Shown here piece by piece: positions 55,502-61,928 of a stretch of DNA of 64,000 bases (positions are counted from its first letter, which is position 1; every line of letters begins with the position of its first letter). Location: contig NZ_RYZH01000036.1 of the NCBI RefSeq assembly GCF_003977685.1, positions 1 through 64,000 on the forward strand. Reading direction: 5' to 3'. The stretch is from Tautonia sociabilis (GTDB lineage Bacteria > Planctomycetota > Planctomycetia > Isosphaerales > Isosphaeraceae). Below the pieces are notes generated by a model. It did no database searches. It was not told where the DNA came from and worked only from the letters and a program-made list of their open reading frames with translations. The position numbers and the translations under genes are program-made.

Positions 55502-56955
55502 CCCGAGCCCGATCCCCCCTCCGGCTTTCTCCCCACGGCGATCGTCGACAGCGCCGGCCAGCCAGGGAGACGCTCGACCAGCTTCGCCACCGGCAGGAGC
55601 AGGTCGAACAGCCGCATCTGCCCGGGAGACAGCCGGTCCTTCCCGAAGATCTTGCCGCTGACGTACCAGCCGACCGTGCCCAGCCGGTTGAACCCCTGCT
55701 GATGCACCACCTCGAAGCCGGCCTCCTCCAGCTTCCGCCGCAACTCATCGGCCGAGTAGCGCCGCTCGTGCCCCAGCGCCCGGTCGGTCGGCGAGTAGAG
55801 CCACGGGTGCTGCGGCACCAGGATGATCGCGTGCCCCCCCGGCTCCAGCGAGCGGAAGAACAGGCGGAGCACCTCCTCGTCCGGCGCGATGTGCTCCAGC
55901 ACGTTCAGGCAGACGATCGTATCCAGCCGCTCCCCGGAGAGCCGATCGTAGTCGGACTCCCGGGCCAGGTCCATCTCGACCGTCTCGACGTTCTCCAGGT
56001 GCCCGAACCGCCGGGAGATCATCTCGACGTAGAACGCCTCGTTGTCGGTGGCGACCAGCCGCTGCCGCTCCAGCAGCAGCTCCGTCAGGTTCCCGATCCC
56101 GCAGCCGGCCTCCAGCACCCGATTTCCCACCCACGGCTCGATCTGCCGGAACAGCCAGCGGTTGAGCCCCCTCGCCTTCCTCATGGCGACGAGCACCGCG
56201 TACCCGTCATGCGTCGTGAATCTCCGGTCGAGGAACCGGCAGCGCAGCAAGACGCCGATCGCCCGCAGGCCGTCGGCCCAGCGGACCTTCTTCCCCTCCA
56301 GATACGTCCTCCCGGCGTAGCTGATCGGCACCTCGTACAGCCGGATGCCCCACTGCGACAGCCGCACCGTCAGCTCCGGCTCGACGCCGAACTTGCGGCT
56401 GCGCAGGGGAGTCTGCCGCAGCAGGTCGGCTCGGACGGCCTTGTAGCCGGTTTCCATGTCGGTGAGGTTCAGGTCGCAGAGCACGTTGGTCAGCCCGGTG
56501 AGCAGGGCGTTCCCCAGGCTGTGCCAGAAGTAGAGCACCCGGCGATACTCGCCGCTCAGGAACCGGCTCCCGAAGACGGCGTCGGCCCGGCCGTCGAGGA
56601 TCGGCCGGACCAGCCGGGGCAGGTCGTCGGGGTCGTATTCGAGGTCGGCGTCCTGGATCACGGCGATCTCGCCGCGCAGGTGGGGCAGCGCCGTCCGGAT
56701 CGCCGCCCCCTTGCCCCGGTTGCGATCGTGCCGGAAGACTCGAATGCGCGGATCCGCCTCGGCCAGCTCGCGAAGCACCTCCCCCGAGCCGTCGGTCGAG
56801 CCGTCGTCGATGGCGATCAGCTCGAAGGGGGCCGGCAGCGGCGCCTCCAGGACGCGCCGGATGATCGTCCGCAGCGTGCGACGCTCGTTGTAGACCGGGG
56901 TGATCAGGCTCAACAGCGGCCGGCTCGTCGCCGCGTCGGGGCTGGGCTCGGACAT
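55498..56955 (-). CDS. GT2 glycosyltransferase fused to class I methyltransferase
   Basis: This 485-residue protein joins a GtrB/DPM1-like GT2 domain to a SAM methyltransferase. The GT2 part (10-250) has LITPVYNERRTL, Asp50 and Asp51 in AIDDGSTDGSG, QDADLEYDP with the DxD-like Asp102/Asp104, and METGYKAVRA. The methyltransferase part (about 255-470) has VLEAGCGIGN (motif I) and CLNVLEHIAPDEEVL. Members of this GT2 group use NDP-sugars and polyprenyl phosphate. The linked methyltransferase may methylate the sugar or carrier, or be an independent partner. The start at 56955 has no good ribosome site. It is divergent from the S9 peptidase. Confidence 0.88.
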   Translation of the reverse strand: MSEPSPDAATSRPLLSLITPVYNERRTLRTIIRRVLEAPLPAPFELIAIDDGSTDGSGEVLRELAEADPRIRVFRHDRNRGKGAAIRTALPHLRGEIAVIQDADLEYDPDDLPRLVRPILDGRADAVFGSRFLSGEYRRVLYFWHSLGNALLTGLTNVLCDLNLTDMETGYKAVRADLLRQTPLRSRKFGVEPELTVRLSQWGIRLYEVPISYAGRTYLEGKKVRWADGLRAIGVLLRCRFLDRRFTTHDGYAVLVAMRKARGLNRWLFRQIEPWVGNRVLEAGCGIGNLTELLLERQRLVATDNEAFYVEMISRRFGHLENVETVEMDLARESDYDRLSGERLDTIVCLNVLEHIAPDEEVLRLFFRSLEPGGHAIILVPQHPWLYSPTDRALGHERRYSADELRRKLEEAGFEVVHQQGFNRLGTVGWYVSGKIFGKDRLSPGQMRLFDLLLPVAKLVERLPGWPALSTIAVGRKPEGGSGSG

Positions 56956-57123
56956 GCGTTCGCTTCGCGTCTCGCCGCGTCGTGGGGAAGGACGCCCCCG
57001 ACACGATACCGGATCGCGGCCCGAAGGCTCCAGGGCGCTCCGCCCCGGGCGAGCCCTCCCAAGAGGCCGAGCCCTCGAAGTCTCGACGAGAAGCGGCCAG
57101 AATCGCGACGGTGGCTCGAATCC

Positions 57124-57158
57124 GAACCCCGAACCCCGAACCCCGAACCCCGAACCCC
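57124..57158. repeat. GAACCCC heptanucleotide tandem repeat
   Basis: Five perfect tandem copies end about 11 nt before the peptidase start codon, between the divergent fusion gene and peptidase gene. Confidence 0.9.
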
Positions 57159-57169
57159 GAGCAGGAGCG

Positions 57170-59741
57170 ATGACGTTGAGGCCCCGTCCGACCCTCCTGA
57201 TCCTCGCCACGGCGATCGCGCTCTCGATCCCGACCGGCCGATCCCCCGCCCAGGGGACCCCGGCCGACTACCGCCGGGCCGACACCCTCCGCGAGCGGAC
57301 CCGAGGCACCGTCTTCCGGGACCGAGTCCGAGCCGACTGGTCGCCCGACGGCTCCCGGTTCTGGTATCGCAACGACCTCCCTGGCGGGACCCTCGAGTTC
57401 GTCCTCGTCTCGGCCAAGGACGGGGATCGCCGACCGGCCTTCGACCACGCCCGGCTGGCCGGGTCGCTCGCTGAGGAGACGGGTATCGACATCGACCCCG
57501 CCCGCCTGCCCATCGACCGCCTCGACTGGGACGATGACGGCACCTCTTTCCGCTTCCGAGCCCTCGACCGATCGTGGCGGCTCGACCCCGAGACGGGGGA
57601 GCTCCTCGCCGACGACCGCCCCCTTCCCCCGGCCTCCCGCCGACGTTCCTTCGTCCCCCGGGCCAGCCGGAGAACAGGGGAGGAGACGGAGATCGTCGTC
57701 GTGAACCGGACCGACGGCCCCGTCTCGCTGATCTGGTACGACCCCGGGGGCCGCCCCCGGCCCTACGGCACCATCCCCCCCGGCCAGGAGCGCCGCCAGC
57801 ACACCTTCGGCGGCCACGTCTGGTCGGTCGAGGACCGGGACGGCCGGGAGCTCGACCGCTTCGAGGCCGAGGACCGCCCCTCCCGCTTCGAGATCTCCGC
57901 CGATCAGCCCCCCCCTCCCTTCGAGCGGCCCGACCGAGTCCGGCCGGGCCCGGATCGCGGCGAGCCCTCGCCGGACGGCCGCTGGGAGGCGGTCGTCCGC
58001 GACCACAATGTCTCCCTGGTCGACCGCCAGACCGGGGAGCAATTTCTCCTCTCCGACGACGGCACCGAGGCCGACGGCTACCAGCCCCGCGTCTCCTGGT
58101 CGCCCGATTCGAGGAAGTTCGTCGTCCTTCGCCGGGCCAGGGGAGACGACCGCAAGGTCTACCTCATCGAGTCCTCCCCCCGCGACCAGCTTCAGCCGAA
58201 GCTCCACTCGTACGACTACCTCAAGCCCGGCGACCGGGTCGACGTCTCCCGGCCCCATCTCTTCCATGTCGGTCGCCTCGAGCGCATCCCCGTCGACGAG
58301 CGCCTCTCCCCAAACCCCTGGCGGATCAGCGACCTGCACTGGGCCCCCGACTCGTCCCGGTTCCTGTACCTCGACAACGAGCGCGGCCACCAGGTCCTTC
58401 GCGTCATCGCCGTCGACGCCGAGACCGGCGCCGCCGTTCCGGTGATCGAGGAGCGGAGCGACACCTTCATCGACTACAGCCAGAAGACCGTCTTCCGCTA
58501 CTTCGAGGACACCGAGGAGATCCTCTGGGCCTCCGAGCGAGACGGCTGGAACCACCTGTACCTCTTCGACGCCCGCTCCGGCGCCCTGAAGCACCGGGTG
58601 ACCTCGGGCGAGTGGGTCGTCCGGGCCGTCGACCGCGTGGACGAGGAGGCCCGCCAGATCTGGTTCCGGGCCATGGGCATCCATCCCGGCCAGGACCCGT
58701 ACCACATCCACCACGCCCGAGTGAACTTCGACGGCACCGGCCTGGTGCTCCTGACCGAGGGGGACGGCACGCACTCCGTCGAGTTCTCCCCGGACAGGAC
58801 GTATCTCATCGACTCCTATTCCCGCGTCGACCTGCCCCCGATCACCGAGCTGCGATCCGCCGAGGACGGCCGCCTGATCCTCGAACTGGAGCGCGCCGAC
58901 TGGTCGGCCCTGCTCGAAACCGGCTGGCAGATCCCCGAGCGGTTCGTCGCCAAGGGCCGAGACGGCCAGACGGACATCCACGGCGTGATCTTCCGCCCAT
59001 CGAACTTCGACCCCTCGCGTTCCTATCCCGTCATCGAGCAGATCTATGCCGGCCCGCAAGGGGCGTTCGTGCCCAAGGCGTTCTCCCCCCTGCACCGGCC
59101 CCAGGTGCTCGCCGAGCTGGGGTTCGTGCTCGTGCAGATCGACGGCATGGGGACCAACTGGCGATCGAAGGCGTTCCATGACGTCTGCTGGCGGAACCTC
59201 GGCGACGCCGGCTTCCCCGACCGCATCGCCTGGCTCAAGGCCGCGGCGGCCGACCGCCCGTACATGGACCTGACCCGGGTCGGTATCTACGGCGGCTCGG
59301 CCGGCGGCCAGAACGCGCTCGGGGCGCTGCTGTTCCACCCCGACTTCTACAAGGTCGCCGTCGCCGACTGCGGCTGCCACGACAACCGCATGGACAAGCT
59401 CTGGTGGAACGAGCAATGGATGGGATGGCCCGTCGGCCCGCACTACGAGGCCTCGTCGAACGTGGCCAACGCCCACCGGCTCCGCGGCAAGCTGCTGCTG
59501 ACGGTCGGCGAACTGGACCGCAACGTCGATCCCTCCTCGACGATGCAGGTCGTCGACGCCCTGATCCGGGCCGGCAAGGACTTCGACCTCGTCGTCTTCC
59601 CCGGCGTCGGCCACGGCGCCGGGGACAGCCCCTACGGCGATCGCCGCCGCCGCGACTTCTTCGTCCGCCACCTGCTCGGTGTCGAGCCCCCCGACCGCAA
59701 CGCCGAGCCCCCCCCCGGACGGCGACGACTCGGGCGACTGA
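57170..59741 (+). CDS. Exported S9 (dipeptidyl-peptidase IV-like) peptidase, frame unclear at 3' end
   Basis: The protein has a signal peptide (LLILATAIALSIPTGRSPAQ), an N-terminal beta-propeller to about residue 600, and an alpha/beta hydrolase domain. The catalytic set is Ser710 in IYGGSAGGQNAL, probable Asp783 in GELDRNVDPSS and His815 in GVGHGAGDSPY. It removes dipeptides or short peptides from extracellular protein. The frame stays open through a C9 tract (59708-59716) and runs far into the next gene; with one base fewer it would end at TGA 59739-59741 after EPPPDGDDSGD. The coordinates given use that end, implying an indel or slippage. The start ATG has AGGAG only a few bases upstream. 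The GAACCCC repeat lies just before. Confidence 0.85.
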
Positions 59742-59921
59742 CCCCCCATCGCCCGGATCTCCGCCCTCCTCGGTCCCGGTCCCGGTCCCGGAATCCGCGA
59801 TTTTTGGGCGTTCCTCGACGGATCCCGACGGCCCGAGGCACAGATAACATAGAGAGGGCCGTCCTGGCCGACCTCAACCCCGGCCGGACCCGGCCCCGCA
59901 ACTCCGAGCGAGCACCCAACG

Positions 59922-61928
59922 ATGCGCCTCACGCTCCGCACACTTCTCGCCTGGCTCGACGACACCCTCCCGCCGGAGGAGGTCCGCGAGATCGGCACCC
60001 AGGTTGCCGCCACTCCCTACGCGCAGCAACTGGTCGAGCGGATCCGGACGGTCAGCCGTCGGCGTCGGCTGACCGTCCCGCCGTCGAGCGGGCCCGAGGC
60101 GGTCGACCCGAACACGGTGGCCGCCTACCTCGACAACGAGCTCGAGGCGGAGAAGGTCGCCGAGTACGAGAAGCTCTGCCTGAGCTCCGACGTCCACCTG
60201 GCCGAAGTCGCCAGTTGCCACCAGATTCTCAGCCTCATCAAGAACAAGGCCAAGGTCCCCCCCGAGGCCCGGTACCGCATGTACCGGTTGTTCAAGGGGC
60301 CGGAAACCGTCCGGACCAAGGATCGATCCTCCCCGAGCCTCGGACAGCTCACCTCCGAGGGGGCCGTGCCCGGCGCCCTGCCGGGCACGGCGGCCGAGCC
60401 CCCCTGGGCCTCCCGTCCAACCGTCCGGCCCTCGCTGGTCGAGCGCTTCGGCCCCCCGGCCCTGGCCGTCCTCCTGATCGCCGTGCTGACGCTGGTCGGC
60501 CTGCTGAACCTGAAGTACGCGAAGGTCGACGTTCTCTCGGATGACACGGCGGTCGCCGCGATCGACGCCGACGCCGACGCCGAGCTGGTTCCGGAAGGTG
60601 AGACGCCTCCCGGCCTCCTTCACAGATCCGCTCCCCCGATCTTCGAGCCCGAGGAGGAGCAGCCCGACACCGAGGCCCCGGTCGACTCCGACCCGGCCCT
60701 CGACCGCGACCGCGACGGGCCTCCACCCCCCGTCCCGGCCCCCGAGGGCGAGCCCCTGCCCCCTGGGGCCGCGGCCCAGGTCGAGCAGATCGTCGGCATC
60801 GCGCTGCGGGCGAGCAGAGACGGCGAGAACTGGCAGTGGGAGCGGCTGGAGGCGCAATCGACGCTCCAGCCCGGTCTGATCGTCGTCAACCTCCCCCCCT
60901 CCCGGACGATCCTGGACCTGGGGTCGGTCGGCGTGACCCTGGTCGGCCGGGCCGACCTGCGGGTCGACCTGCCCGGCCCCGACCGGGAGGCCCGGTTCGA
61001 CCTGATCGACGGCGACCTGCTGCTGCGGCCCTCCGCCGAGGGCGGCGCGGTCGAGGTCGGCGTCTCGGGCCGGACCCTCACCCTCGATCCCCCTCCGGGC
61101 CAGCCGATCGGCCTGTCCGCCGCCGGGGTCCGGGCCCCGGGAGAGCCCGCCGGCCGACCGGGGCTGACCATCGCTCTCTCCGAGGGCTCCTTGACCGCCT
61201 CCGTCGACGGCGGCGCCTCCGAAACCTTCGAGGGCCCTGCCCTCATCGCCTTCGACCCCGAAGCCGGCTCCTTCGCCACCTCCGCCGGGGCCGAGGCCCT
61301 GCCGGCTTGGATCGACGACCCCGAGCCGACCGAGGCCGAACTCGCCGACATCGAGGCGTTCTCCGGCTTCTTCTCCGACTCCTCCGGGCCGCTTCCGTTC
61401 GTCCTGCTCGAAGGGACGATGGACGAGGAACCGGCCATCCGCCGTCTCTCGGTCGCCGCGCTCGGGGCGATGGGCAGCATCGACCCCGGCCATCTCGAGC
61501 TCGTCGCCGAGCTGCTCAACACCCCCGACGCCCCCGAGCTGCGGGCCGAGGCCATGACGATCCTCCTCCGGCAGATGGCCCGGGGGCCCGAGGAGGCGGC
61601 GATGGTGCACCGCTTGCTCGATCGCGTCGCCCCTGCCGAGGCCGTCGCTCCGATGGACCGCCTGCTCACCGGCTATCCCGAAGACCGCCAGCAATCTCCC
61701 GAGGTCCTCGCCGAGCTGGTCGGCGCCCTCTCCTCCCCCAACCCCGGCGTCCGGCAACTCGCCCTCCAGACCCTCATGACGATCACCGGACGAGACGCCC
61801 AGGGCTACGACCCCGACTCCCCCGACGAGGACGCCCTCGAATCCTGGCGCTCCCTCCTCTCCTCCGGCGACCCTTCCCCCCGAGGCCGATCCTCCCCGAC
61901 CCCCAAGGCCGGGGATCGACGCCGCTGA
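59922..61928 (+). CDS. Anti-sigma/FecR-like membrane protein with HEAT-like C-terminus
   Basis: This 668-residue protein starts with two similar helical modules (6-42 and 62-108; LLAWLDDTLPPEEV and VAAYLDNELEAEKV are alike) resembling tandem anti-sigma zf-HC2-like domains without the zinc Cys-His set. A single membrane helix is at about 178-197 (ALAVLLIAVLTLVGLLNL). Beyond it is an acidic Pro-rich linker, a FecR-like beta-rich domain (about 290-400, ILDLGSVGVTLVGRADLRVD) and HEAT-like helices (about 480-640, PNPGVRQLALQTLMTITGRD). It probably holds a sigma factor or other regulator at the membrane in response to an outside signal, but no sigma gene is next to it. Confidence 0.65.
   Translation: MRLTLRTLLAWLDDTLPPEEVREIGTQVAATPYAQQLVERIRTVSRRRRLTVPPSSGPEAVDPNTVAAYLDNELEAEKVAEYEKLCLSSDVHLAEVASCHQILSLIKNKAKVPPEARYRMYRLFKGPETVRTKDRSSPSLGQLTSEGAVPGALPGTAAEPPWASRPTVRPSLVERFGPPALAVLLIAVLTLVGLLNLKYAKVDVLSDDTAVAAIDADADAELVPEGETPPGLLHRSAPPIFEPEEEQPDTEAPVDSDPALDRDRDGPPPPVPAPEGEPLPPGAAAQVEQIVGIALRASRDGENWQWERLEAQSTLQPGLIVVNLPPSRTILDLGSVGVTLVGRADLRVDLPGPDREARFDLIDGDLLLRPSAEGGAVEVGVSGRTLTLDPPPGQPIGLSAAGVRAPGEPAGRPGLTIALSEGSLTASVDGGASETFEGPALIAFDPEAGSFATSAGAEALPAWIDDPEPTEAELADIEAFSGFFSDSSGPLPFVLLEGTMDEEPAIRRLSVAALGAMGSIDPGHLELVAELLNTPDAPELRAEAMTILLRQMARGPEEAAMVHRLLDRVAPAEAVAPMDRLLTGYPEDRQQSPEVLAELVGALSSPNPGVRQLALQTLMTITGRDAQGYDPDSPDEDALESWRSLLSSGDPSPRGRSSPTPKAGDRRR

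Follow-up and report, generated by a model that had tools for sequence, protein, structure and literature searches.

An extra C in a nine-C tract probably carries the reading frame of a Tautonia sociabilis S9 peptidase past its ordinary end

C-terminal phase variation has been described in Helicobacter canadensis, for which tract lengths are reported to vary in the reads (PMC2823697), and in Neisseria gonorrhoeae, for which tract lengths are reported to differ between strains in some genes (PMC5320596). The locus described here resembles both of these systems in that the length of a homopolymer close to the gene's 3' end sets the C-terminus. The other systems that come close are the dipeptidyl peptidase IV-like (DPP4-like) S9 peptidases of planctomycetes and their relatives, whose two domains, Peptidase_S9 (PF00326) and DPPIV_N (PF00930), are both common to the peptidase of this study, and the S9-DUF885 fusions, which have the same S9 core and, like the frame studied here, a long C-terminal part past its conserved end. 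The window, i.e., the whole stretch of DNA that was analysed, comprised 64,000 nucleotides of the contig NZ_RYZH01000036.1 of Tautonia sociabilis, and the source assembly is a draft of 6,760,005 bases in 133 contigs.

The coding part of the S9 (dipeptidyl peptidase IV-like) peptidase that precedes the C tract is located at 57170..59707 on the forward strand, and it was assigned from Pfam, PDB and orthologue matches. The putative start is the ATG at 57170, and the open frame extends back to 56900. About five head-to-tail copies of the seven-base unit CGAACCC were seen by eye at 57123-57157, just upstream of this putative start. The Pfam matches were Peptidase_S9 at 3.9e-49 (167.5 bits, cut-off 22.6) and DPPIV_N at 1.8e-42 (145.8 bits, cut-off 22), which place the protein among the S9/DPP4-like peptidases, and solved DPP4-type chains in the PDB matched the peptidase as well, down to 1.7e-47. 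The S9 domain match covers residues 642-835 of the 846 encoded before the tract and profile positions 5-210 of 213, and the S9 catalytic domain is thus predicted to be complete ahead of the C tract. Two same-genus orthologues showed 87-88% identity over the last 269 aa of the peptidase. Within the N-terminal part of the peptidase, residues 167-224 (57668-57841) also matched the VHL beta-domain (Pfam PF01847, 1.8e-8).

The conserved end of the peptidase, FFVRHLLGVEPPDRN, is followed by GCCGAG and then by a tract of exactly nine C at 59708-59716 of the forward strand, which was read directly and has a G on both sides. This tract is the only homopolymer of at least four bases between the conserved PDRN codons and the TGA at 59739. 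With nine C, as the assembly is written, the frame is open over 56900-60544 and reads VEPPDRNAE and then PPPGRRRLGRL and onward; counted from the first C of the tract, 278 codons precede the stop at 60542-60544. The Arg/Pro-rich run-on after the tract (59717..60544, forward strand) has a net charge of +36, with 22% Arg and 18% Pro, and is judged from its codon scores and the lack of a family match to be no real protein segment. When one C is skipped, NAE is followed by PPPDGDDSGD and by the TGA at 59739-59741, and this eight-C tail has a net charge of -5; the short acidic tail and its stop (59717..59741, forward strand) are family-like when set against the ends of the relatives. The third frame past the tract would give a tail of 46 residues. 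The sequence-only reading had claimed that nine C carry the frame to 60544, inside the next gene, and that eight C give an acidic tail with a stop at TGA 59739-59741, and both claims were confirmed by translation.

Our preferred reading, to which we give a probability of about 0.86, is that this is an ordinary S9 peptidase ending at TGA 59739-59741, and that the tract has one C too many, through either an assembly miscount or a real insertion. The natural product would end at this TGA, 16 residues past the conserved VEP motif. The one surplus C relative to that frame would then stem from a miscounted homopolymer in the draft assembly or from a one-base insertion in the isolate, and an insertion, if real, would leave the catalytic domain intact and merely give the protein a basic run-on. 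The extra base itself is presumably non-functional, and the long frame most likely results from this one base and has no function either.

The ends of related peptidases were compared in two sets. A match was present in 55 other genomes, and the first set consisted of the best 29 of these, without the own locus. In 26 of the 29 relatives the stop falls within a span that reaches from 2 codons ahead of where the alignment ends to 26 codons beyond it, and G001, G011 and G019 run on. None of the relatives read in this set of the best 29 of 55 carries a comparable C tract at the end of the gene. The second set consisted of 80 loci from genome contigs, some of the genomes being common to the first set, and one locus not reaching the end was dropped. 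Tail length was counted so that the P of VEP has number 1. Of the 79 loci, 77 then end at position 20 or earlier, one ends at 22 and one stays open to the end of the locus or contig; the peptidase of the window would end at 17 with eight C and at 285 with nine. Within the same genus, the two closest orthologues have short acidic ends, GLPPEEADLAEGED and TVPSADSDLAEGGE, with net charges of -6 and -4, respectively. Judged by sequence comparison with these relatives, the eight-C end is the family-like one.

The next gene (59922..61928, forward strand) encodes 668 aa with C-terminal HEAT-repeat matches (Pfam HEAT_2, 8.1e-10), and it is overlapped out of frame by the run-on. It was matched in 34 of the 36 genomes searched, own genome included, and the alignments mostly begin at its first or second residue. 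A codon score was trained on 363 long frames from the genome of the window, and in 59717-59867 and 59742-59921 it was negative for all six frames. The nine-C frame scored -15 in 59717-59867 and -124 in 59922-60544, and in the latter stretch the sole positive frame was that of the next gene (+83.6). A search of 59600-60000 for promoter-like and terminator-like sites yielded none. The search of the run-on tail against Pfam and NCBIfam gave no match, so that the earlier statement that the Arg/Pro-rich tail has no family resemblance holds. The run-on searched against the same 36 genomes (E at most 1e-3) returned, besides its own copy, 17 matches in relatives, and all 17 overlap the orthologue of the next gene, with coordinates shifted against that gene's frame; conservation of the run-on in relatives was therefore rejected. 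Stops occur inside 15 of these 17 matches (four in G002 and six in G003), and none in those of G001 and G014. In three genomes of the same genus, the peptidase gene and the orthologue of the next gene are separated by about 155 kb (G002 and G003) or about 2 Mb (G001), and this distance indicates that the overlapping arrangement was not passed down as one piece.

Frame keeping was surveyed at other C/G homopolymers. Among 57 C/G runs of at least nine bases, 20 have clear frames on both sides, of which 19 keep the frame and one, in a transposase-like gene, shifts; the frame is unclear at 36 further runs, and the last run lies at an edge. The runs of eight number 208, and 75 of them have a clear frame on one strand: 71 keep it and four shift, the four shifts being read by eye as gene boundaries. 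Of the other runs of eight, one changes strand, 129 are unclear and three are at an edge. Shifts at shorter runs numbered 31 of 781 clear cases for six bases and 7 of 245 for seven, counts that are uninspected and will include gene boundaries. The comparison genome G001 is 9.4 Mb in 6 contigs (the largest of 8,668,938 bases), and in 400 kb of it all 39 clear runs of at least eight keep the frame. The assembly is mostly right at such C/G tracts. That the frame is kept at most tracts argues somewhat against an assembly error, and it does not lower the prior for a real insertion. Of the claim that the assembly has one extra C, the part that stands is the short acidic end as the real one, which is borne out by the family comparison and the coding signal; the extra C itself may lie either in the assembly or in the DNA of the isolate. 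A side observation concerns a G9 run (L241:13738-13746, i.e., G000:C100:133738-133746), at which the reading frame changes within a gene that we take, from its sequence, to be transposase-like; this shift is possibly the programmed frameshift of an insertion sequence.

The numbers of C/G runs expected by chance were derived from a first-order model, and the counts were made in a 1.89 Mb sample of the genome (70% GC). C/G runs of at least nine bases are depleted in this sample, with 57 observed against 159 expected. The window itself has four such runs against about six expected under the first-order model, and 79 of 100 shuffles of the window have at least the six overlapping C9 matches that were seen. 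When 849 long frames were shifted at a point ten codons ahead of their stops, run-ons of at least 270 codons followed at 143 and 148 of the 849 ends for the two shifts (17%). At random in-gene sites, a frame switch in the eight-C direction ran into a stop within 20 codons 36% of the time; the nearby TGA alone is weak evidence because of this chance rate, and it was rejected as strong evidence by itself. The tract, the length of the run-on and the TGA are each unremarkable alone, and it is the family comparison and the coding signal that decide.

The alternative that survives best, although we consider it unlikely, is a contingency locus in which slipped-strand mispairing between eight and nine C would give the peptidase a short acidic tail at one length and a long basic tail at the other. 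A run of nine C is long enough to slip in principle, and C-terminal phase variation is described in the two species named above. Against this stand the depletion of C/G runs of at least nine bases in the genome sample, a run-on that has neither coding signal nor a homologue in its own right, and the absence of the tract with its flanks from the other 44 family genomes. A pattern allowing any tract length, searched in the genus and in 45 family genomes, matched the window's own copy alone, and the same pattern found nothing in the set of genome contigs, from which the own genome may be absent. By a criterion of our own, both C-termini of such a locus would be protein-like; the long tail has a negative codon score and no family match. 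The sequence-only reading had offered a variable tract that switches the C-terminus as its second alternative, and this alternative is without support, as long C/G runs are rarer than expected, the tail carries no coding signal and the tract is missing from the gene ends of the 29 relatives. A more elaborate form of the idea, in which a slippage-prone C9 would let the short acidic and the long basic DPP4-like C-termini alternate and the out-of-frame long form would couple the expression of the next gene, appears more doubtful still. Were variation of the tract to be demonstrated, the peptidase gene would be a case of C-terminal phase variation in a planctomycete.

It is very improbable that the long C-terminus is genuine, i.e., a new lineage-specific tail that was gained by a frameshift and is now used. 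The frame is indeed open for 278 codons, but run-ons of this order (at least 270 codons) arise from composition alone at 17% of long-frame ends, and the codon score is strongly negative where the tail overlaps the next gene. The least credible of the alternatives is that the genome truly has nine C and that slippage of RNA polymerase or the ribosome lets part of the product end at TGA 59741, for which there speaks the family-like end one frame off, directly after the homopolymer, and against which there speaks the lack of the tract at the end of the gene in the 29 relatives, where a programmed site would be expected. The frame is also kept at 18 of the 19 further runs of nine that lie inside genes and can be read clearly.

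Long frames do exist in related genomes, and the sequence-only reading had named a conserved long frame in related strains as a ground against its claim; those found are DUF885 fusions, which are unrelated to the tail of the window. Seven S9 extensions of 595 to 693 aa were read (G001, G007, G011, G019, G029, G032 and G040), and each of them coincides with a DUF885 match from the genome search; an eighth (G017) comes from coordinates. A Pfam scan of the G040 extension also gives DUF885. The fused loci were L033, L034, L035, L041, L042, L043 and L044, and the unfused ones were L036, L037, L038 and L040. DUF885 matches are present in 50 of the 59 genomes searched, and the genome of the window has zero. 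The distribution of the fusion is patchy, as G011 is fused and its genus mate G028 is not, and G001 is fused and G002 and G003 are not. When three of the seven fused extensions were searched by tblastn against the end of the window and the rest of the contig, only weak matches were obtained (best E 0.73). The run-on as a remnant of DUF885 was rejected, as there is no Pfam match in the tail and no DUF885 match in the genome.

For annotation, the preferred reading of an ordinary peptidase with one C too many means that the nine-C frame yields a protein with about 270 surplus residues, which overlaps the next gene. In a genome of 70% GC, a single homopolymer miscount or insertion can yield a long and convincing-looking open frame. 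As compared with the known systems, Helicobacter canadensis and Neisseria gonorrhoeae show variation in tract length, whereas the tract of the window is known at one length, that of the assembly. The S9-DUF885 fusions carry DUF885 in their extension, whereas the tail of the window is without any Pfam match; with zero Pfam families in the tail and zero DUF885 matches in the genome, the locus falls outside that group. Among the DPP4-like S9 peptidases, most of the relatives read end directly behind the FFVRHLLGVEP motif, and unlike these relatives, the frame of the window as written passes that end into the next gene, whereas the eight-C reading ends as they do.
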